From positions 1 through 53,864 of the forward strand of contig CANRIF010000004.1 in assembly GCA_947630645.1 (NCBI GenBank): 53,864 nucleotides of DNA, written 5' to 3'. Made by a program: the position numbers and the translations under genes. Source of the DNA: an uncultured Oscillospiraceae bacterium (GTDB lineage: Bacteria > Bacillota > Clostridia > Oscillospirales > Oscillospiraceae). The notes under the pieces were generated by a model that was given only the letters and a program-made list of their open reading frames with translations, ran no database searches and was not told the origin of the DNA. Below, piece after piece: positions 1,024-12,088 of this stretch. Within the stretch, counting starts at the first letter, position 1; every line of letters begins with the position of its first letter.

Positions 1024-1536
1024 ATGAGAGCAAAACGCATCCTGGCCCTGCTGCTGGCGCTGCTGACGCTGCTGACCTTGGCCGCCTGCGGCGGCGCTGT
1101 CGAAGAGGCCGTCAATGTTCTGGATGAGGTCCTGGAGGAGAGCCAGACGCTCCCAGCGGACGACCGCCTGCCGGAATACGGCGAATACTATTACGATGTG
1201 GAGAACGTGGTCCTCTACCTGGAGGCCTACGGCGAACTGCCGCCCAACTACATCACCAAGAGCGAGGCCCGCAAGCTGGGCTGGGAGGGCGGCTCCGTGG
1301 AGAAATACCAGGAGGGCGCGGCCATTGGCGGCGACACGTTCGGCAACCGGGAGGGCCTGCTGCCGGAGGCGTCCAGCCGGCGCTATGCCGAGTGCGACAT
1401 CGACACGGACGGCTACGGCTCCCGGGGCGCCCGGCGGCTGGTCTTTTCCAACGACGGGCTGTACTTTTACAGCGACGATCACTACGAGACCTTCTCCCCG
1501 GTGACCGTGACGGACGAGTATGAGGTGATATGGTGA
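1024..1536 (+). CDS. Barnase-type ribonuclease with a lipoprotein signal peptide
   Basis: A 170-residue protein whose residues from about 60 to the end match the barnase/microbial RNase fold: LPPNYITKSEARKLGW, IGGDTFGNREG, then the catalytic segment. The barnase catalytic set is present: Glu123 (barnase Glu73), the SRGARR arginines (Arg83/Arg87) and His153 (His102) in DDHYETF. It should therefore be an active guanyl-preferring endoribonuclease. The N-terminus is a signal peptide ending in the lipobox LAAC with Cys22, so the enzyme is predicted to be exported and tethered to the outer membrane face, with a linker of about 40 residues. Classical barnase is secreted free. The barstar-like inhibitor gene overlaps its last 7 bases. 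Confidence 0.88.
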   Translation: MRAKRILALLLALLTLLTLAACGGAVEEAVNVLDEVLEESQTLPADDRLPEYGEYYYDVENVVLYLEAYGELPPNYITKSEARKLGWEGGSVEKYQEGAAIGGDTFGNREGLLPEASSRRYAECDIDTDGYGSRGARRLVFSNDGLYFYSDDHYETFSPVTVTDEYEVIW

Positions 1537-1817
1537 AGGAATTTTATTTGGACTGCGCCTATCTGGCAGAGCGGGACAGCGCCCACGGGTATCTGGCGGA
1601 GGTGTTCGGCTTTCCTCCCTACTACGGGCGGAACCTGGACGCGCTGTACGATTGTCTCACGGAACTGGGGCCCTGCCGCGTCGTGCTGACCGGCGCCGCA
1701 GACACGCTGCGCCAGTGGGGCGGCTACGGCGCCCGCATCCTGGATACGCTGGAGGCCGCCGCGGTGGATGATCCCCGCATCCAGCTGATTTTTAGCGCAC
1801 CCACATCAGAGGAATAA
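1530..1817 (+). CDS. Barstar-family ribonuclease inhibitor
   Basis: A 95-residue cytoplasmic inhibitor of the barnase-like enzyme encoded just upstream. The signature YYGRNLDALYDCLTE matches the barstar helix that plugs the RNase active site; Tyr31, Asp37 and Asp41 correspond to barstar Tyr29, Asp35 and Asp39. Length is normal for the family (about 90). The ATG lies inside the end of the RNase gene (ATGGTGA overlap), so the two are translationally coupled, as expected for a toxin and its protector. It has no signal peptide, so it would neutralise any enzyme that fails to be exported. Confidence 0.9.
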   Translation: MVKEFYLDCAYLAERDSAHGYLAEVFGFPPYYGRNLDALYDCLTELGPCRVVLTGAADTLRQWGGYGARILDTLEAAAVDDPRIQLIFSAPTSEE

Positions 1818-1875: not shown

Positions 1876-2982
1876 TCAGCTGTGGCTGCGGCAGCGGCGG
1901 GCAATGACAGCCAGCAGCGCGGCGGACAGGACCAGCAGCGCCGCCCAGGGCAGCAGAGCCGCCTCGTCGCCGGTGTTGGGCGCGCCGTTCGACGCATCCG
2001 GGGTGGCCGTGGGAACAGGCGTGGCCGTTGCGTCCGGGGCGTCGTCGCCGTCATCCCCCTCGTCACCATCGCCGCCGGGGTCCCGGGGATCGTCGTAGAC
2101 CCCGCCGTTGGGATCGGCGCTCTGCAGTTCGATCAGGCCCTGCAGGGCCGCCCGCAGTTCCTGGACTGCCACGGCGATCCGCTCCACGTCCTCGGTCTCG
2201 GCCGCGTCTCGCGCCTCCTGGATGGCAGACGCCAGCAGCGCGTAGCTATCCGGGGTAAAGTCGGACGCCTGGAGTTCTTCGGCGTCCTCAAGCAGCGCCA
2301 AGAGATCGGTCTTGCCGGCCAGCTGAAGGGAATTCTTCGCCGCGTTATAGGCGGCGATGGCGGCGTCCACATCCTGCTGGGTCAGGTCATCCCGCTCCCG
2401 CAGCTGTTCGATCTGGTCGATGGCGGCGTTCAGCTTGCTCCAGCTGTCGTCGGAATACTTGTGGGCCGTGCCGAACTCGGTGTTGGCGCTGTCCAGCACC
2501 TGGACGAGCTGCTCCCACAGGCTGTCCACCCGGACCGTCTCCGGCGCATTCTGGGCGACAGTGCGCCGGCCGTAGACGTAGGCCAGGGACTCGGGGATGG
2601 GTTCCACGCTCTCCACGTCGCCGGTCAGATAGCCCACCACGACGCTTGTGACGCCCTCGCCCATCAGCGGCTCCGTTCCGGCGATATACACGCCCAGGGT
2701 GCCGTCGGCCTCCGTGGCGCACCAGGTCAGCCGATCCCCAAGGCCGGCGAACGAGAACTCTGCCTCGCCGCCCACGCGGAGTTTGAACTGCACGGAGCAG
2801 ATCTTCTCCGCGGCCATGTGGCCGGAGACCAGGGTGACGGTCCCGTTCTCGGAGATCACGATCTCGTCCGTCCCGGCGTCCCCGCCCGCGTCCGCCAGGG
2901 CGGCGGGCGCGGCGAGAAGCACCAGCGTCAACACGGTCAGCAGGGCGAGCGCCTTCCGGACCGATCTTAAAATACGTTCCAT
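1876..2982 (-). CDS. Sortase-anchored surface protein with cohesin-like and FIVAR domains
   Basis: A 368-residue exported protein. The ATG at 2982 is preferred because AAGGAG lies 9 bases upstream; the longer reading would begin at a TTG. Order: signal peptide (cleavage after about residue 30), a beta-rich domain at about 40-122 (SVQFKLRV..., then a GVYIAGTEPLMGEGVTSVV stretch) that resembles a cohesin, two alpha-helical FIVAR repeats (about 155-220 and 225-285, the second with the typical SDFTPDSYALL), an Asp/Pro/Thr linker, then the anchor APNTG (334-338), a hydrophobic segment and RRCR. It is the second gene of an operon behind the dockerin-bearing protease. FIVAR and anchor are clear; the cohesin call is inference from pattern only. 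Confidence 0.75.
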   Translation of the reverse strand: MERILRSVRKALALLTVLTLVLLAAPAALADAGGDAGTDEIVISENGTVTLVSGHMAAEKICSVQFKLRVGGEAEFSFAGLGDRLTWCATEADGTLGVYIAGTEPLMGEGVTSVVVGYLTGDVESVEPIPESLAYVYGRRTVAQNAPETVRVDSLWEQLVQVLDSANTEFGTAHKYSDDSWSKLNAAIDQIEQLRERDDLTQQDVDAAIAAYNAAKNSLQLAGKTDLLALLEDAEELQASDFTPDSYALLASAIQEARDAAETEDVERIAVAVQELRAALQGLIELQSADPNGGVYDDPRDPGGDGDEGDDGDDAPDATATPVPTATPDASNGAPNTGDEAALLPWAALLVLSAALLAVIARRCRSHS

Positions 2983-3006
2983 CCTATCCAACTCCTTCCT
3001 CTCCGT

Positions 3007-6000
3007 TCAGCCCACGCTGGCGCTCTGCAAGGTGACCGTGCCCAGCGGCGACGGCACATCCACGAACAGGCTGTCGCTCACCAGCCGGTGGCCCTCATTG
3101 GTGATGGCGTCGTTCACGCGGTAGAGTTCCGCGCGGACCTTGCGCGGCGGGACGTAGCCCTCCGGCATATCCTCGGGCTGGATCCAGCAGATCCAGACGC
3201 CGTCGTTCACGTCCTCGATCTTCCCCGTGTCGGGCAGATCGGCCATGATGGTCTGATAGACCCGCTGGGTGCCGTCGGCGGCCGTGCCGGCCACCATCTT
3301 GCCGTCCTGGTCGTAAAGCACCACCACGTTGTAGGCCGCGTTGCCCTTGTAGGCCCCGGTGAACACCAGGGACCCGGCGGGGATCACGTCGTCCGGCGCG
3401 TCGCCGTACTTGAACGCCGCGCTCAAATAGCCGATGGCGGGCTGGCCGGAATCGTCGGTGCGTCTAAACTCCACGTTGTCGCCGGAGAGGCCCAGCGCAC
3501 CCAGTTCGGCCACGGAGATCATCTGCCCCGCCTGGCCCGTGAGCGCGAGACGCATACCGTCTGCGCTGTATGTGCTGACATACCTGCCGTCCGCGTTGGA
3601 GAAGTACACGGTCTTGTCGCCGTCCAGCGTCCCCTCGGCGGCGCGGACCCACTGGCCGTTCTGATGCACGTCCACGGCGTACCCTGCGATGGCCGTACCG
3701 GACCCGGCGGTGTAGCGGAAGCCGGTAATCACCTGGGTCTGGCCGAAGCCGATCTCGATGCAGGCGCCCTCGCCCACGGTGGCGCGGTACACGGTGTCGC
3801 TCTTGCCGTCCGCTATCCGCTGGGCCACGTCCTCGGGGATCACCTCGGGCATATCCTCGTCGCCGCCGGTGGAACCGATGTCATTGGGATCGGCCGTGAG
3901 GCCGGTAGTGGTCACGGTCCAGCCGTTCTTGTCCAGATCGCCCTCATGGCGGATCTTCACCGTCCCAGTGACCACGGCGGCAGAGCGGTTCAGATACTGG
4001 TCCACCAGCGTGATCTCATAGTAGACGGCCCGGTTGTTCATGGCGTACACCACGTCCGAGAAGCTGTCTCCCGTGGCAAAGCCCACGGTCCGTTTCTCTA
4101 CCTTCCCGGCGGCGACGGTGCAGCGCACGATCTCGTAGCCCAGCACCTCCTCGTCGCTGACCGCGCCGTTATGCCCCAAGGTGATGTTCACCCGGTTGGC
4201 CTGGTCGGGGTCGGCCGCCACGGTGACGGTGCCCACGGCGTTAGTGGTGCCGTCGGCGGCCAGGTGGCTGCCGGAGGGATGCTCCATGGTATAGCGGCGG
4301 GAATCGTCGCACACATAGCAGATGGCGCGGCTCTCCGCCTTGAACTGCCCGGCGTAGGCCAGGGTAGTCTCGTCCGGGGTCATGCCCCAGCGCAGGAAGA
4401 AATCCGTCAGATCGCGCTCCGCCGCGGCGCAGGCCAGACGCATGATGGTCTGATCCACGCCGGCGCCGTCCAGGGTCAGGGCCACGCCGCCCGGCGCGGG
4501 GGCCTTCTTGGGCGTGCGGGCGTAGGTGTCCACCCGGGCGTAGAACAGGTTCGCCAGCTGCTGCTTGTAGTCGGGGTAGGTCTTGAAGTTGTACCCGCTG
4601 TCGTAGGCCAGGTGCAGCTGCCAGTACATCGCCAGCTGGGTGAACACGTCGCTGGCCCTGCCCCTGGTGCCGCTGGTGACCTTCTCGTATACCTTGGGAT
4701 ACTGGAAACGGACGCTGTCGTTGCTGTCCTTGGCCTGGGCCAGGACGGCGAAGTAGTTGTTGGTGATCTCGGCGATGGCGTAGGAGCCCTGGTTGATGTC
4801 GTGGCCGATCTCATGGGCCACGCCCCAGCCGAAGTAATTGCCGGACTGGTAGAGGCCATTGCCGTCATAGACCACGCCGCCGCAGCCGGCCATGCCAGCC
4901 GTCTCGTTCCACTCGATGCCGATGTGGTCGCCGGAGGCGTACATGAACGCGCCGGAGAACATCCGCTGGTAGCGGATATTCAGATGGCGGTTGGGGATGC
5001 GGTCCGCCGCGTCGGGGGCGGAGGCGTTCAGGCCCTTGTGCTGGTAGAAGAGATACATCATGTTCTCCATGGCGTCCAGGGAGCCAAGCAGCGTCTGGGC
5101 GCTGCCGCCGCAGCCCTTGACCACCTGCTGCGCGGGCAGGGAGAGCATCATGGTATCCAGCATGATATCCGTGGCGCCCAGGATGCAGTTGGCCGCGTCG
5201 TAGGGATAATCCACCTCGGTGCTGACGGCGTTCTCGCCCTGATGGACCGCCTCATGGGCCGCCTGGATGCCGCCGACGTAGCTTTGCAGCGCGGTGAGGT
5301 AATCCGCCACACGCTGGGACCGCTCGCAGCTGTCTGTCACATGGTACAGGTCCAGCACGGGCACTTCCGTGCCGCCGCTGACGCGCACGGCGTAGCTGTC
5401 GCTGGCACTGGCGCCGCCGGTGTACTGCACATACAGCGCCCCGCCGGACTCCATGCCGGTGTTGGTCCAGATCTTAGGCAGCTTGATCTCATTGGCGCCG
5501 ATACGCAGCGTGACCAGGACCTTGCTCATGGCGCTGGACTCGGCGTGGTACTGGGTGGCCACCAGCTGGAGGTTGGTGAGCGCGCCGGTCTTCATGGAAC
5601 TGTTGCCCACATAGATGGTGACGCTCTCGCCGGCCGCCGCCGTGACGCCCAAAGGCTGCCAGGCGTTCAGGCCGCCGAAGCCGTGGTCGTCGCCGCTGGC
5701 GGTGATGCCGGTGTGGATGCGGATGACCCGGCCCAGGAACTGGTCGTTATAAATGAGCCGCGCCGTCTCCAACTCCCGGAGCAGCAGCGTCCGGTCCGGG
5801 TTCACCTCGCCGAACTCGTCCACAGAGGCGTTGATCGCCTCCTCCAGGGCATCCAGCTGCTCGGCGGTGACGGTGTCCTTCAGCGTGGTGTGCAGATCGT
5901 CCGCGTACAGGTCACGCAGCTGCTGCTTGAGGGTGTCGTATTTATAGAAGTAGACCTCGGAGACGTTGACCCGGTTGTTGCCGGCCCAGTAGCGGGCCAC

Positions 6001-8451
6001 GCCGATCTGCACCTTCTTGGCCTCCACCGGCTCGGGCAGGCGCAGGAAGAAGTATGTGCGCCCGCTGCTGTCGGTCCGGCGCTCGGAGGACATCTCATTG
6101 CGGTCGATGTAGTGTTCCGTCCCGGCCTCGTCCCACCAGCGCAGCTTGATATAGGTGTAGTCCATAGCACTGTCCACGGCGGACATCATGCCGATGGTGT
6201 CCATCTTGTAGGGCGCGTCGAAAGTGTATATCAGGCCCACGGAGGCGGACAGGTTGTTGTACCCGCCGTCGTCCCAGGTCTTGCGGTCGTAGTAGGACGC
6301 GCCGTCGCCATCCACCGTGCCCCAGGCCGTGCCTGTCTCTGTGTCCAGCGGGCTGCTGTTCATCACGCCGCCGCTGCTGCCCATGACGGCAGACTGGATG
6401 TGATCCCGGCCGGGCTTACCGGCGCTGTCCCGGTTGATAAGGTTGAAGCGCGGCATCTCCGGCGGGTCCAGGGTGACCGTGAGGGCGCTGGCGTGCATGG
6501 ACGGGGCGCTCTCGCCAAATTCGTTCTTGCCCACCACATAGACCTCGTACTTCGTCGCCTTGGTGCTGTCCAGGCCGGTGATGGCGTAGGAGTTGGCCGT
6601 GAGGTCGGCGATCTTGATGAACTCCGCCGCGCCGTCCTGTTTATAATAGAGGTCGTAGCTGGTGGTGTCCTTCATCCGCTTCCAGCTGACGTTGACGGTC
6701 TGATAGGCGCCCGTGGCCTTCACGTTGTCCGGCTTGTCCGGCGCGGAGGTGGGCTTGGGCGTCACGGAGACGGCCTTGGACCAGCCGCTGGACCAGGAGC
6801 CGTTGACGGAACGCACCCGGACCGTATAGGTGGTGTAGTTGAGTACCTCGTCGTTGCCAAAGCGGGTCACCGTCAGGGACTTGCCAGTGAGGGAATAGGT
6901 CTCCGGCGCGCAGTCCTGGGCGCTGACCTCGGCCTCATAGCCGGTGATGTTGACGCACTCCGACCAGGAGACCGTGAACTGACGGCTCCCCTCCACGGCG
7001 ATCACGTTCAGAGGGATGTCCGGCGCGGGCTCGGGGATGCGCTCGTCCATGTCGTTGACGAACTCCACCTGGGATATCTCCGCCAGATTCAATGTATCGG
7101 AGGTGCCGGTGATGGTGAGGGTCACCTTCTTGACCGCCTTCTGGGTCCCCAGGTCCACGACGATGTCGCCGCCCTTTTGGGTGACGGTGACCTCCGCCAC
7201 GGCCACGGGCATATCGATGGCCGTGAACGCGGCGATGGTGGCGATCTCGGAGACCGGCTGCGCCTCGCCGATGGTCCCCACGGCGGTGGTGCCGTCCTCG
7301 TATTCGATAAGCACCGAGCCGGAGGCGATGTTGGTCTGTTCAATGAGGATCGCGCCCGCCTGCGCGCCCTCGGGCAAGCCGAAAGCCACCTCAACAGGGG
7401 TCTCCGGGGAGATGGGTGTCTCGCCCTCCGCCCGGGCGATCTGCACGCTCTGGCCGTTGTCCTCAAAGAGGTTCTCCATGCCAGTGACCTCGGTGTCCTC
7501 GCCTACGGCGGACTCGATGGCCTCGGCGGGGACAAAATGTTCCACCGTGGCCTCCTGCTGGCCCACGGCCTGCCCCTTGGCGAGGTACTCCGCGTCGGCC
7601 AGAGTGGTGACGCCGTCGTGGTTCAGGTCGGTGAAGCCAGCGTCGGACTGGCCGGACACAGCCTGCATCATGGCGACGCGGTCCGCCTCGTCCACATCGC
7701 CGTCGCCGTCCACATCGCCGATCTGCAGCACGCCGGGGTGCGCCCCGGCGTCGTACCCGGCCAGCCGGCCAGCCGTCAGCTGCACGGTCATCCCGTCGCT
7801 CTTGCCGACCTGGATGCTCTGGCTGAACGTGGCGAAGCCCTGCCCCGTCACGGTCAGCGTATACGCGCCCTCCTCCAAACCGGAGAACCGGACCGCGCTG
7901 CCGTCGGCGGGCACCTCATGCCGTCCCGCCTCCGCGCCGTCCCGGGTCAGCACCGCGGTGAACACGGGCGTGAAGTCGCCCAGGTCCAGCGCCTTGCGGA
8001 TGCTCACGTCCATCCGGCCCGCGGCCTCCGGCAGATAGGCGAGCCACTGGGTATCGTAAAGCCCGTCCTCCTCCGGCTCCGGCGATGCGGAGGGTTCCGG
8101 CGACGTGGACGGCTCCGGTTCTTCGGACGCCTCCGGCGACGGTTCCGGAGACGTTTCCGGCTCCGGCGTCGCGGACGGTTCCGGTTCTTCGGACGCCTCC
8201 GGCGTCGGTTCCGGAGACACTTCCGGCTCCGGCGTGGCGGACGCCTCCGGCTCCGGCGTCGGGACCTCGGTGGCCTCCGGCGCGGGGTCGGCATTCGTCT
8301 GTGTGTCCAGTCCGCCCTGTTCGTCCAAGTGGGCGTCCGGCTCGGCAGACGCCTCCGGCGACGGGATCAGCGGGTCCTCCTCCGCGTAGACGGGACCCGC
8401 TATGCTGAACATCATGACCAATGCCAGCAGCAATGCAAGCTTCCTCTTCAT
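3007..8451 (-). CDS. Secreted multidomain M60-type (mucinase) metalloprotease with dockerin
   Basis: A 1,814-residue exported zinc protease. Signal peptide 1-23; Pro/Glu/Ser-rich linker to about 130; a beta-sandwich at about 150-230; a dockerin with two complete calcium loops (DVDGDGDVDEAD at 246-257, DLNHDGVTTLAD at 275-286); two fibronectin III domains (about 476-660); a discoidin-like domain (670-840); a FIVAR-like helix pair; then the M60/enhancin-like catalytic region (about 905-1400). Its HEIGH at 1213-1217 and Glu1228 fit the HExxH(8-28)E zinc motif. Further beta domains follow, including a second discoidin-like one near 1525-1680. M60 enzymes cleave glycosylated host proteins such as mucins. 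The start has GAGGTG upstream. It shares an operon (24-bp gap) with the anchored protein. Confidence 0.9.
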   Translation of the reverse strand: MKRKLALLLALVMMFSIAGPVYAEEDPLIPSPEASAEPDAHLDEQGGLDTQTNADPAPEATEVPTPEPEASATPEPEVSPEPTPEASEEPEPSATPEPETSPEPSPEASEEPEPSTSPEPSASPEPEEDGLYDTQWLAYLPEAAGRMDVSIRKALDLGDFTPVFTAVLTRDGAEAGRHEVPADGSAVRFSGLEEGAYTLTVTGQGFATFSQSIQVGKSDGMTVQLTAGRLAGYDAGAHPGVLQIGDVDGDGDVDEADRVAMMQAVSGQSDAGFTDLNHDGVTTLADAEYLAKGQAVGQQEATVEHFVPAEAIESAVGEDTEVTGMENLFEDNGQSVQIARAEGETPISPETPVEVAFGLPEGAQAGAILIEQTNIASGSVLIEYEDGTTAVGTIGEAQPVSEIATIAAFTAIDMPVAVAEVTVTQKGGDIVVDLGTQKAVKKVTLTITGTSDTLNLAEISQVEFVNDMDERIPEPAPDIPLNVIAVEGSRQFTVSWSECVNITGYEAEVSAQDCAPETYSLTGKSLTVTRFGNDEVLNYTTYTVRVRSVNGSWSSGWSKAVSVTPKPTSAPDKPDNVKATGAYQTVNVSWKRMKDTTSYDLYYKQDGAAEFIKIADLTANSYAITGLDSTKATKYEVYVVGKNEFGESAPSMHASALTVTLDPPEMPRFNLINRDSAGKPGRDHIQSAVMGSSGGVMNSSPLDTETGTAWGTVDGDGASYYDRKTWDDGGYNNLSASVGLIYTFDAPYKMDTIGMMSAVDSAMDYTYIKLRWWDEAGTEHYIDRNEMSSERRTDSSGRTYFFLRLPEPVEAKKVQIGVARYWAGNNRVNVSEVYFYKYDTLKQQLRDLYADDLHTTLKDTVTAEQLDALEEAINASVDEFGEVNPDRTLLLRELETARLIYNDQFLGRVIRIHTGITASGDDHGFGGLNAWQPLGVTAAAGESVTIYVGNSSMKTGALTNLQLVATQYHAESSAMSKVLVTLRIGANEIKLPKIWTNTGMESGGALYVQYTGGASASDSYAVRVSGGTEVPVLDLYHVTDSCERSQRVADYLTALQSYVGGIQAAHEAVHQGENAVSTEVDYPYDAANCILGATDIMLDTMMLSLPAQQVVKGCGGSAQTLLGSLDAMENMMYLFYQHKGLNASAPDAADRIPNRHLNIRYQRMFSGAFMYASGDHIGIEWNETAGMAGCGGVVYDGNGLYQSGNYFGWGVAHEIGHDINQGSYAIAEITNNYFAVLAQAKDSNDSVRFQYPKVYEKVTSGTRGRASDVFTQLAMYWQLHLAYDSGYNFKTYPDYKQQLANLFYARVDTYARTPKKAPAPGGVALTLDGAGVDQTIMRLACAAAERDLTDFFLRWGMTPDETTLAYAGQFKAESRAICYVCDDSRRYTMEHPSGSHLAADGTTNAVGTVTVAADPDQANRVNITLGHNGAVSDEEVLGYEIVRCTVAAGKVEKRTVGFATGDSFSDVVYAMNNRAVYYEITLVDQYLNRSAAVVTGTVKIRHEGDLDKNGWTVTTTGLTADPNDIGSTGGDEDMPEVIPEDVAQRIADGKSDTVYRATVGEGACIEIGFGQTQVITGFRYTAGSGTAIAGYAVDVHQNGQWVRAAEGTLDGDKTVYFSNADGRYVSTYSADGMRLALTGQAGQMISVAELGALGLSGDNVEFRRTDDSGQPAIGYLSAAFKYGDAPDDVIPAGSLVFTGAYKGNAAYNVVVLYDQDGKMVAGTAADGTQRVYQTIMADLPDTGKIEDVNDGVWICWIQPEDMPEGYVPPRKVRAELYRVNDAITNEGHRLVSDSLFVDVPSPLGTVTLQSASVG
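8079..8270 (-). repeat. Tandem repeat encoding the Pro/Glu/Ser linker of the M60 protease
   Basis: Near-identical units of about 66 bases encode EASEEPEPS...PEPETSPEP stretches in residues about 60-125. The units differ by a few bases only, so recent duplication or slippage is likely. The linker probably spans the cell wall or separates the dockerin from the surface. Confidence 0.7.
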
Positions 8452-8641: not shown

Positions 8642-9946
8642 TCAAGCCAGCTCGATCCGCAGCACGGTGTCCGTCTCGTCGGGCAGGACCGGGTCGGGCC
8701 CCAGGTCCAAAAAGCACACGTCCGGCCAGTCGCTGTGGACCCAGCTGGTGGAGATCGGTATCTCCCGCCCGTCGGCCAGGCAGGTCACCGATCGTATCTG
8801 CTCCTTTTTCAGGCCCGGCACCGGCAGCGGGCCAAGGGCGTTTTCGTATATGTGCAGGTAGAGCGTATCGCCCCGGCGGGTAAAGCGGCCGCAGTCCGGC
8901 TTTGGCAGGTCCGCCTTCCCGCAGCCGTAGATGCTCTCGCCGTTACGCTCCATCCAGCGGCCGATGCCCTCCAGGATCTCCAGGGACCGGCGCGGGAACG
9001 CGCCCGTCTCCGTGGGGCCTACGTTCAGGATCATGTTCCCGCCCCGGCTGACGCACTCCACCAGCTTCTTCACTAGGAAGCCGGCGGGTTTATAATAGTC
9101 ATCGTTCCGGCAGTAGCCCCAGCTGTTGTTCATGGTGACGCAGCTCTCCCAGGCCAAGTCTCTCCCCTCCCGATCCCGCAGGCCCTCCGGTGGGATGGTC
9201 TGCTCCGGGGTGATAAAGTCCCCGTGCCAGGGTGTGGGCCGGCACTCGTACAGGGACCCGAAGCCCTCGCCGCTGGCCTCCAGGCGGTTGTTGAGGACGA
9301 TCCCCGGCTGGAGGGAGCGCACCATGTCCGCCAGCTCCGCCGCCCGCCATTTGGCCCCAGTCATCTCGCCGTAGCTGAAGTCGAACCACATCAGGTCCAG
9401 CTTCCCGTAATTCGTACACAGCTCCCGCACCTGCCCGTGCATATAGGCCAGATACCGCTCCCAGTCCCGGCCCTCGTTTCCCGCGGCGGGGTCGTCCCGC
9501 AGGGGGTGGTGCCAGTCGCCATAGTGTGGGTAGTCGGAGTGGTGCCAATCCAGCAGCGAGTAATATAGCCCCACCCGCAGCCCCTCGGCCCGGAACGCGT
9601 CCAGAAACTCCCGCACGATGTCCCGGCCGAAGGGTGTGTTGGTGGACTTATAGTCCGTCAGGGCCGAGTCGAAGAGGCAAAATCCGTCGTGGTGCTTGGC
9701 CGTCAGGACGGCGTAGCGCATCCCCGCCCGCTTGGCGGCTCTGGCCCAGGCGCGGGCGTCCAATTCCGTCGGGTCGAACCCGTCGAAATAGGGCCGGTAC
9801 GCCTCCTCCGGCATCCGTTCCGCGTTGCGTACCCACTCGCCCCGGGCCGGCAGCGCGTACAGCCCGAAGTGGATGAAGAGGCCGAACCGGGCCTCCCGGA
9901 ACCAGGCCATGCGCCGCTCATAGTCCTCCCGCACAAAGCGATACAT
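8642..9946 (-). CDS. GH29 alpha-L-fucosidase
   Basis: A 434-residue glycoside hydrolase removing alpha-linked L-fucose from host-type glycans (core alpha-1,6 or outer-arm fucose; specificity not readable). Family signatures: WFREARFGLFIHFGLYA at the N-terminus, YAVLTAKHHDGFCLFDS, and LDLMWFDFSYGE with the nucleophile Asp189. Length fits the catalytic domain plus a small beta domain. No signal peptide, so it is predicted to be cytoplasmic. It follows the beta-galactosidase by 12 bases in one operon, with GGGAGGAAGG before the ATG. Fucose catabolic genes are not in this window. Confidence 0.93.
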   Translation of the reverse strand: MYRFVREDYERRMAWFREARFGLFIHFGLYALPARGEWVRNAERMPEEAYRPYFDGFDPTELDARAWARAAKRAGMRYAVLTAKHHDGFCLFDSALTDYKSTNTPFGRDIVREFLDAFRAEGLRVGLYYSLLDWHHSDYPHYGDWHHPLRDDPAAGNEGRDWERYLAYMHGQVRELCTNYGKLDLMWFDFSYGEMTGAKWRAAELADMVRSLQPGIVLNNRLEASGEGFGSLYECRPTPWHGDFITPEQTIPPEGLRDREGRDLAWESCVTMNNSWGYCRNDDYYKPAGFLVKKLVECVSRGGNMILNVGPTETGAFPRRSLEILEGIGRWMERNGESIYGCGKADLPKPDCGRFTRRGDTLYLHIYENALGPLPVPGLKKEQIRSVTCLADGREIPISTSWVHSDWPDVCFLDLGPDPVLPDETDTVLRIELA

Positions 9947-9958
9947 ATCCTTCCTCCC

Positions 9959-12088
9959 TTACCGCCGCACGGTGAAGCGCACCTCCACCGGCTCCGTCTG
10001 CGCCGTGGTGATGGTCAGTCTGATGGTCCCGGCCTCGCCGGTGGTCCGCACGAACGTGCCGCCGCAGCCGCCCTCCAGCACCGCCGTCTCCGGTCCGGCC
10101 AGCGCGCCCGGTCCCTCCAGAGCGAAGCGCACCGGCAGCGGGGCGTAGCTTGCCAGGGAGCCGTGTTCGTCCAGCAGCCGCAGCCGCACCGCGGCCATGT
10201 CGTACACCTCGCCCTCTGTAAGTTCCGTGTGGCTCACCCGTGCCTCCAGGTGCAGCCTGGCCGAGGGTCCCTTCGTCACGGAGGCCACGGTCCGGCCGCC
10301 CTTGCGGGCGTCGAAGCGCCAGGCCACGGTCTGGCCGCCCCACCAGGGCACCGCCGCGCCCGTCACCGCCATGGGGCCGTGGGGCAGTGCCTGCCAGTTC
10401 TCATCATGAATGGTGGTCACATATTCGCCGTCCTTGTAGATCGCCACCTCCTCCGCGTTGGTGAAGACCCACACCGTCCCCACATTGCCGCCGGGGTAGT
10501 CCCCGATGTCCAGAGACGAGCCTATCTCCAGCACCGTGGCCTCCTCCCCCTGGCTGGCGTACAGCGCCGCCGCCAGCTTGGGGTTGCGGAAGCTGTCCAT
10601 CACCCCATGGTAACAGATGCGGTCGCCGGAGCCGAAGTCCTTGTGGGTGGCATAGTCGAACATACACCAGCTGAAAAAGCCCGCGTGGCCGCCGCTGGCC
10701 ATGGCGCCGTCCATCACCCGGGCGTGGCGCAAGGCGTGTTCCTGCCGGTGGGCCCAGGTGTCGGCGGGTTTGGTGGGATACATATGGCCGTTGTTCTCGG
10801 TGACGATGAACGCCTTGTCCGGGGCGGCGCACACCTGGTCCCGGGGCCGGACGCCGGCGTTGTTGCCCGTGTGGGAGAAGTCGTTGAAGGCGAACACGTC
10901 CTCCTGGGTGTCCCCCAGCTCCACATACCGGATGCCGGTGGTGGCCCGGCTGGGGTCCAGCTCGTGGGCGATGGCGTTGGTGCGATCATAAAAGGGCGTG
11001 TCGTCCAGGCTCTCGTTGATCCGCACGCCCCAGAGGATCACGCTGGGGTGGTTGCGGTTTTGCAGCACCATCTCCCGGACGTTCTGGCAGGCCTGGTCCT
11101 TCCAGGCGTCATCGCCGATGTGCTGCCAGCCGGGTATCTCCGTCAGCACCAGCAGCCCCTCCCGGTCGCACTCGTCCAAAAAGTACGGGCTCTGGGGGTA
11201 GTGGCTGGTCCGCACGATGTTGCAGGCCAGCTCCTGGCGCAGGATGCGGGCATCCTCCCGCTGGAGCCGCTCGGGGGCAGCATAGCCGATGTAGGGGAAG
11301 GACTGGTGGCGGTTCAGGCCCCGGAGGAACAGTTTTTTCCCGTTGAGGTAAAACCCGTCCGCCTGGAACCGGGCCGTCCGGAAGCCAAAGGCCGTCTCCT
11401 GCATGTCCCCGGAGGCGGGCAGCACGGCCCGCAGGGTGTAGAGCGCGGGGCTGTCGATATCCCAGGGCGCCGCGTCCGGCACCGGGATGTCCACCGTCCC
11501 GCTCCCATGGGCCTCGGCGGCCAGGGTCCCGTCGGGGGCGAATATCGCATACCGCACCGGCCCCGGCGCCGTGCAGCTGACCCGGGCGGTGGTAAGGTCC
11601 GGCGTGTAGATGAAGAGGTCCTCGATGATCTGGCCCGGCCGCGTGTCCAGCCACACGTCCCGGTAAAGGCCGCCGTAGGTGAGATAATCCACCACGTAGC
11701 CGAAGGGCGGGATGGAGGGGTTTTCCGTGCAGTCCAGCTTCACGCTCACCAGCGCCTCCTCGCCGGGGGTGACCGCGTCGGTGATCTCCACGCGAAAGGC
11801 GGTGTAGCCGCAGTGGTGGGAGCCCATCTCCCGGCCGTTGACGTATACCGTGGCGATGTGGGCCGCGCCGTCGAACTGGAGGAAAAAGCGCCTGTCCGCC
11901 CCGTCCGCGGGGATGGGGATGCGCCGGCGGTAGCCGCACACCGTCTCGTACATGGACGGGTCCGCGTAGTGCAGCGGCACCTCGGCCACATTGTGGGGCA
12001 GGCGCACCGGCTCCGCCCCGCCCTCGCCCCGGCCGAAGGCGTCCGTCCACTTGAAGATGAATTCCCAGCCGTTATCCAGTCTCTGCAT
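9959..12088 (-). CDS. GH2 beta-galactosidase
   Basis: A 709-residue GH2 enzyme: sugar-binding jelly-roll domain (about 1-180), immunoglobulin-like domain (about 180-265), TIM barrel, then a C-terminal beta domain. The acid/base is Glu359 in ILWGVRINES and the nucleophile Glu431 in IVTENNGHMYPTK, a pattern of GH2 beta-galactosidases. It lacks a signal peptide, so it should remove terminal galactose from imported oligosaccharides in the cytoplasm. It is the first gene of the galactosidase-fucosidase operon and is divergent from the isomerase operon. The ribosome binding site is GGGAGG. A related GH2 activity (for example beta-glucuronidase) is less likely. Confidence 0.85.
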   Translation of the reverse strand: MQRLDNGWEFIFKWTDAFGRGEGGAEPVRLPHNVAEVPLHYADPSMYETVCGYRRRIPIPADGADRRFFLQFDGAAHIATVYVNGREMGSHHCGYTAFRVEITDAVTPGEEALVSVKLDCTENPSIPPFGYVVDYLTYGGLYRDVWLDTRPGQIIEDLFIYTPDLTTARVSCTAPGPVRYAIFAPDGTLAAEAHGSGTVDIPVPDAAPWDIDSPALYTLRAVLPASGDMQETAFGFRTARFQADGFYLNGKKLFLRGLNRHQSFPYIGYAAPERLQREDARILRQELACNIVRTSHYPQSPYFLDECDREGLLVLTEIPGWQHIGDDAWKDQACQNVREMVLQNRNHPSVILWGVRINESLDDTPFYDRTNAIAHELDPSRATTGIRYVELGDTQEDVFAFNDFSHTGNNAGVRPRDQVCAAPDKAFIVTENNGHMYPTKPADTWAHRQEHALRHARVMDGAMASGGHAGFFSWCMFDYATHKDFGSGDRICYHGVMDSFRNPKLAAALYASQGEEATVLEIGSSLDIGDYPGGNVGTVWVFTNAEEVAIYKDGEYVTTIHDENWQALPHGPMAVTGAAVPWWGGQTVAWRFDARKGGRTVASVTKGPSARLHLEARVSHTELTEGEVYDMAAVRLRLLDEHGSLASYAPLPVRFALEGPGALAGPETAVLEGGCGGTFVRTTGEAGTIRLTITTAQTEPVEVRFTVRR

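Follow-up and report, generated by a model that had tools for sequence, protein, structure and literature searches.

The window analysed here is the whole 53,864-nt contig CANRIF010000004.1 (contig C4) of an uncultured Oscillospiraceae bacterium, part of a 1.87-Mb metagenome-assembled genome (MAG; GCA_947630645.1) that is 73.4% complete. On its minus strand, a gene for a dockerin-bearing M60 protease is followed, 24 nt downstream (counted to the ATG), by a gene for a smaller protein of wall-anchor type, here called the partner (Table 1). That such genes lie side by side had been observed in a preliminary description of the sequence and is confirmed. We consider it probable that the two genes form a private display unit of one dockerin and one cohesin, in which the cohesin is the N-terminal beta domain of the partner (the N-domain) and has been missed by current profiles. 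What supports this proposal is the presence of both genes, their domain architecture, the fact that they are kept adjacent, the cohesin fold predicted for the N-domain, and the joint occurrence of M60, dockerin, and partner.

The M60 protein has a signal-like start followed, in order, by a P/E-rich linker, a PEGA-like domain, the dockerin, a beta region, two fn3 domains, the M60 domain, and an F5/8-like region near the C-terminus; no surface anchor was found in the window protein. Its earlier identification as an M60 protease was borne out by a Pfam scan (PF13402, 46.7 bits, E 4e-12, cut-off 25.8) and by a HEIGH motif of the HExxH type, the HEI of which aligned across 22/22 orthologs of the genus. 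Structure-database matches to the catalytic region included 7jfs, 5kdn, 6xsz, and 9pks. Because the solved M60 relatives among the matches include the ZmpC glycopeptidase and the BcM60 O-glycopeptidases, mucin-type O-glycoproteins are the likely substrate. Both dockerin calcium loops are intact and stand exactly where the preliminary description had placed them, and all 22 orthologs of the genus could be aligned over them. The protein possesses the two 12-residue Ca2+ loops of a type I dockerin, the following helices being seen only in a low-confidence model. Dockerin_1 (PF00404, cut-off 22.9) scored 25.6 bits as a genome match and 18.2 bits, under the cut-off, in the whole-protein scan. The domain also matched 5lxv_B, the dockerin in a cohesin-dockerin complex from Ruminococcus flavefaciens (E 0.0095). 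The halves of the M60 dockerin are unlike each other and those of the other dockerins in the genome are near-symmetric; a single binding mode would be expected of the M60 dockerin.

The partner comprises a signal-like start, the N-domain, FIVAR-like helices, and an APNTGDE tail. Its ATG is a better start than the mechanically assigned TTG, since the latter directly adjoins a GGAAGGAG-like ribosome site. We ruled out a single broken gene, as the partner shows a ribosome site, a start, and a signal-like N-terminus of its own, and the intergenic gap is seen again in 21/22 genomes. The tail is LPXTG-like, and the sortase anchor proposed earlier is likely, but the TIGR01167 score (14.5 bits) stays under the curated cut-off of 15.9. 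Within the genus, xPxTGD-like tails were found in 22/22 partners (G007 reads VPHTAD), and a sortase match was above the cut-off in 32/35 genomes. When nine separate partners from other genera were scanned with Pfam, five had three S-layer homology (SLH) repeats, and three (L144-L146) ended in a hydrophobic stretch and a basic tail; the tails of the partners outside these nine were SLH-like by eye or were lost at contig ends.

The predicted structure of the N-domain had block-mean pLDDT (predicted local distance difference test) values of 88-95 over model residues 11-100 and adopts, in the model, the cohesin jelly-roll fold. When this model was compared by VIA-align, which only re-ranks Foldseek's own candidates, rows 1-24 were all cohesin entries; 2jh2, 2vo8, and 2w1n were among the rows of the comparison. 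The prediction thus supports the cohesin fold that the preliminary description had suggested for the small protein.

Conservation of the pair extends beyond the genus. Of the 35 genomes of the genus, 22 have full-length M60, and exactly these 22 have the N-domain protein, always adjacent and on the same strand; the partner ATG lay 14-26 nt past the M60 stop in 21/22, and G025 was not resolved by the filter used. Across the order, 8/394 genomes gave a match to a first profile (A1), namely the source genome, six in which the match lay directly downstream of M60, and G278. The last of these was rejected, because the G278 frame is 94 aa long and contains a stop, and no partner was found there. PF13402 was detected in 29/388 order genomes at 32 places, which represent 31 genes, since the two places in G288 are pieces of one gene. 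When a genus-only profile was run on 1402 frames from 27 loci, the top ranks were taken by 20 downstream partners (E up to 0.067), and the best-scoring frame other than a partner had E 0.91. The G366 and G396 partners surfaced only after profile iteration. With the enlarged profile, the N-domain was found once per partner, at 24 places in 23/388 genomes, each time directly downstream of an M60 gene. Known partners match this profile by construction, but the absence of other matches at E<=1e-4 is not given by construction. On these order-wide counts of PF13402 and the N-domain, chance co-occurrence of the two genes was rejected.

Dockerin_1 was found in 23 of the 24 partner-linked M60 proteins, across families of the order, with 18 over the Pfam cut-off and five under it (G271, 21.9; G245, 21.7; G350, 21.6; G195, 16.9; and G367, 11.3 bits); in G143, no dockerin was found in the 625-aa M60 frame that is visible. 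For the remaining seven M60 genes no separate partner is visible, and none of the genomes concerned is among the 23 with an N-domain match. Five of these with visible downstream DNA (two in G082 and one each in G150, G209, and G147) lack Dockerin_1. The M60 protein of G343 likewise gave no Dockerin_1 match; it was excluded from these five dockerin-free controls because its reading frame is cut off where the contig ends, leaving the downstream gene unseen. In G338 (L164, G338:C17:1-12000), M60 and a weak dockerin (12.4 bits) are combined with three SLH repeats in a single 2246-aa protein. It was not counted as an M60-N-domain fusion, the stretch before the SLH repeats being N-domain-like by eye only (profile E 0.22). 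A loose two-loop dockerin motif also fired in the G343 and G150 M60 proteins, which have no Pfam dockerin, and the dockerin counts therefore rest on Pfam.

These distributions bear on an alternative that grants the N-domain a cohesin-like jelly roll but makes its ligand a glycan or a host molecule. The genes would then lie side by side because both products act at the mucus surface, and the M60 dockerin would bind some other cohesin. The confinement of the N-domain to the neighbourhood of M60 genes that nearly always encode Dockerin_1 argues against this alternative, as does the lack of an N-domain beside the five dockerin-free M60 genes, and we regard it as improbable. Candidates for such another cohesin do occur in the source genome, in which two further dockerin proteins are encoded on contigs C12 (L126) and C6 (L127), bringing the dockerins to three. 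The earlier statement that there was no other cellulosome sign was thus correct for the window and not for the genome. Each of these two dockerin genes is directly followed by a gene with a signal-like start and a cohesin-like domain, and both companions end in SPETGDE tails. The C12 companion matched PF00963 at 16.5 bits over nearly the whole profile, NPCBM_assoc at 23.0, and DUF11 at 22.2, all below the cut-offs; the C6 companion alone had no cohesin match in Pfam (DUF11 best, 18.0). As a positive control, such companions of other dockerins were aligned with cohesins by hhalign at 99.2%, the two alignments having one sequence in common. A control without the shared sequence and without PF00963-positive members, in which five partners lacking a PF00963 genome match were aligned jointly with 19 cohesins from relatives, gave 95.8%. 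The preliminary description had held that a true cohesin elsewhere in the genome would speak against its proposal, and to that extent the objection applies in part. However, these two cohesin-like proteins adjoin their own dockerins, and the loops of those dockerins carry other residues than the M60 loops (at positions 10-11, EA/LA in M60, GD/GD in C12, and VL/VL in C6), which further disfavours the ligand-binding alternative. The differing loop residues would fit private specificities.

Across the genus, 9/21 non-M60 dockerin places had a downstream cohesin-like partner, eight of the nine with a TGD-type tail. Among the cargo proteins of these pairs, some matched InlB-like or leucine-rich repeats, and for others dockerin and EF-hand models were the sole matches; the pairing is therefore not about enzymes. 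In 16/22 genomes with the M60 pair, the M60 dockerin was the sole dockerin match and no PF00963 cohesin was found, so that the neighbouring gene is the only visible partner. As a separate observation, G024 (L120, L121) and G027 (L119) have several dockerins and Pfam-level cohesins and no M60 pair; G027 has two dockerin genes and two cohesin matches on one contig. On a wider reading, dockerins and cohesins here would work as private pairs that exclude one another, with each cargo encoded beside its own single-cohesin anchor. The M60 cohesin lineage would be too divergent for the profiles tried and would have been kept across several families, its anchor being swapped between sortase tail and SLH; we hold the chances of this wider reading to be evenly balanced.

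Several results weigh against the display unit. Foldseek alone returned no match to the N-domain model at E<=0.001, its best row was not a cohesin, and TM-scores were 0.50 or less. PF00963 was absent among the Pfam matches of all 22 genus N-domain members (E<=10, HMMER filters on). The profile-profile comparison suggested earlier as a check did not link the N-domain to cohesins; hhalign of the N-domain with cohesin alignments gave 14.5%, 1.2%, and 2.3%, and under 2% with the iterated profile; N-domain profile searches of the PDB (hmmsearch) returned only unrelated rows and no cohesin. As to anchoring, the sole sortase match in the source MAG is below the cut-off (23.7 bits), and one of the nine scanned partners from other genera (G402, L167) had no recognised anchor, neither SLH nor a hydrophobic-basic tail. 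Dockerins without a downstream partner account for 12/21 of the other dockerin places in the genus (two in G027, four in G024, two in G023, one in G004, and weak ones in G003:C22, G019:C237, and G015:C68). That the neighbour is the only visible partner in 16/22 pair genomes is qualified by the C12 and C6 companions, which are cohesin-like although PF00963 misses them, and by the incompleteness of the MAGs. The two other cohesin-like proteins of the source genome could compete for the M60 dockerin. The AlphaFold2 model of M60 residues 141-400 was poor (pLDDT 55.3, about 50 in the dockerin part) and was not used.

The dockerin itself yielded the remaining points of this kind, and they bear on a second alternative, in which the EF-hand pair of the M60 protein is a calcium-stabilised spacer with no binding partner and the downstream protein touches M60 elsewhere or only shares its regulation. 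Such a spacer would agree with a dockerin that is internal rather than terminal, has unlike halves, and is degenerate in a few orthologs, for example G026 and G014. It would also agree with the mirror-tree test, which gave no dockerin-specific co-variation signal; N-domain distances correlated at 0.57 with the dockerin, at 0.63-0.81 with the other M60 regions tested, and at 0.24 with the signal peptide. Moreover, by mean pairwise identity in the genus, the whole dockerin (0.56) is conserved no better than the fn3 or C-terminal regions (0.57-0.66; fn3 0.64 and 0.66). However, loop 2 with its helix (residues 274-292) reaches 0.72, compared with 0.56 for the first half and 0.44 and 0.45 for the regions on either side of the dockerin. 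This better-conserved second half, together with the near-constant presence of Dockerin_1 in partner-linked M60 proteins across families of the order, argues against a mere spacer, and we judge this alternative to be quite unlikely, more so than ligand binding by the N-domain.

For the display unit, we infer secretion, dockerin-cohesin contact, anchoring chemistry, and substrate as follows. Both proteins would be secreted, and the tail of the partner would hold it at the cell surface, through a sortase-type anchor in the genus and, in several genera elsewhere in the order, through SLH repeats. A FIVAR-like or other spacer would keep the single N-terminal cohesin-fold domain off the surface, where it would capture the internal M60 dockerin by Ca2+-dependent binding. 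The M60 protein, with its fn3 and F5/8-like domains, would then face outward, probably against mucin-type O-glycoproteins.

Table 1. Features of the M60-partner locus and neighbouring genes (positions in the window)
Feature	Position	Strand	Details
M60 protease gene	3007..8451	-	PF13402; 1814 aa
Dockerin_1 domain, internal	7579..7719	-	residues about 245-291; PF00404; aligned in 22 orthologs
Dockerin calcium loop 1, DVDGDGDVDEAD	7681..7716	-	residues 246-257; from sequence
Dockerin calcium loop 2, DLNHDGVTTLAD	7594..7629	-	residues 275-286; from sequence
M60 catalytic domain match	4384..5166	-	residues 1096-1356; genus mean pairwise identity 0.81
Partner gene	1876..2982	-	368 aa from ATG 2982; mechanical start TTG at 2991 (1876-2991)
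N-terminal beta domain, predicted cohesin fold	2569..2865	-	model residues 8-106; stretch before pLDDT drops <50
FIVAR-like helical domain	2326..2502	-	26.7 bits, cut-off 29.2
LPXTG-like sorting tail, APNTGDE-hydrophobic-RR	1879..1983	-	from sequence; TIGR01167
Alpha-L-fucosidase gene	8645..9946	-	PF01120
Glycoside hydrolase family 2 (GH2) enzyme gene	9962..12088	-
Small gene, first	1024..1536	+
Small gene, second	1530..1817	+

Directly upstream of the M60 gene and on the same strand are genes for an alpha-L-fucosidase and a GH2 enzyme. These neighbours are in keeping with glycan use by the locus, and the three genes are possibly one glycan-use operon. On the other side, two small overlapping plus-strand genes are convergent with the partner gene; we take them to resemble a secreted RNase of the barnase type and an inhibitor of the barstar type.

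Surface anchoring of cellulosomes and amylosomes uses both sortase and SLH anchors. The M60 pair is like these systems in having a dockerin on an enzyme and a cohesin, here predicted, on a surface-anchored protein. It is unlike them in that each gene pair has one enzyme and a private single-cohesin anchor with no scaffoldin seen, the cohesin is invisible to profiles, and the cargo is a protease. With one cohesin and one dockerin, the M60 pair is no cellulosome; neither a multi-cohesin scaffoldin nor a large set of dockerin enzymes, as in a cellulosome or mucinolysome, was found in the 73.4% complete genome, which has no PF00963 match and three dockerins. The earlier term "cellulosome-like" therefore fits loosely. 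FIVAR domains occur in the cohesin-dockerin glycoside hydrolase system of Clostridium perfringens, which resembles the M60 pair in its non-cellulosomal pairing and mucin-active enzymes and is represented among the VIA-align rows by the three entries named above. There, both modules are on enzymes, whereas here the cohesin-fold domain is on a dedicated anchor. The catalytic region is held in common with other M60 glycopeptidases (ZmpC, BcM60, and F5/8-type M60 proteins), but the window subfamily differs from these in its internal dockerin after a PEGA-like domain and its separate anchor gene. The Limousia mucinolysome (PMC12997984) is a mucin-directed gut cohesin-dockerin assembly. It has 3-6 scaffoldins bearing as many as 12 cohesins, as many as 22 dockerin-bearing carbohydrate-active enzymes, dockerin peptidases, and a cohesin protein, cSca5, that is anchored by sortase. 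The M60 pair is like it in its presumed mucin-aimed cohesin-dockerin display and unlike it in being a 1:1 pair; a word search of the main text of that paper gave 0 occurrences of M60. A 2012 count gave two dockerin proteins among M60 proteins (PMC3267712). Cohesin-dockerin surface display, its mucin-directed versions, and M60 proteins with dockerins are thus known already. An M60-dockerin protein with an adjacent private cohesin anchor was not found described in the open-licence literature searched, and within that literature the private 1:1 gene pair, the profile-invisible cohesin, and the exchangeable anchor appear to be new.

If the display unit is real, many orphan dockerins in gut bacteria that have no scaffoldin would gain a partner that annotation has missed, and the rule would be to check the next gene. 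Cohesin-dockerin display would also reach beyond multi-enzyme carbohydrate machines to lone proteases on the surface, likely directed at host mucin glycoproteins. If, moreover, the pairs are mutually exclusive, they would constitute a natural set of orthogonal binding pairs.
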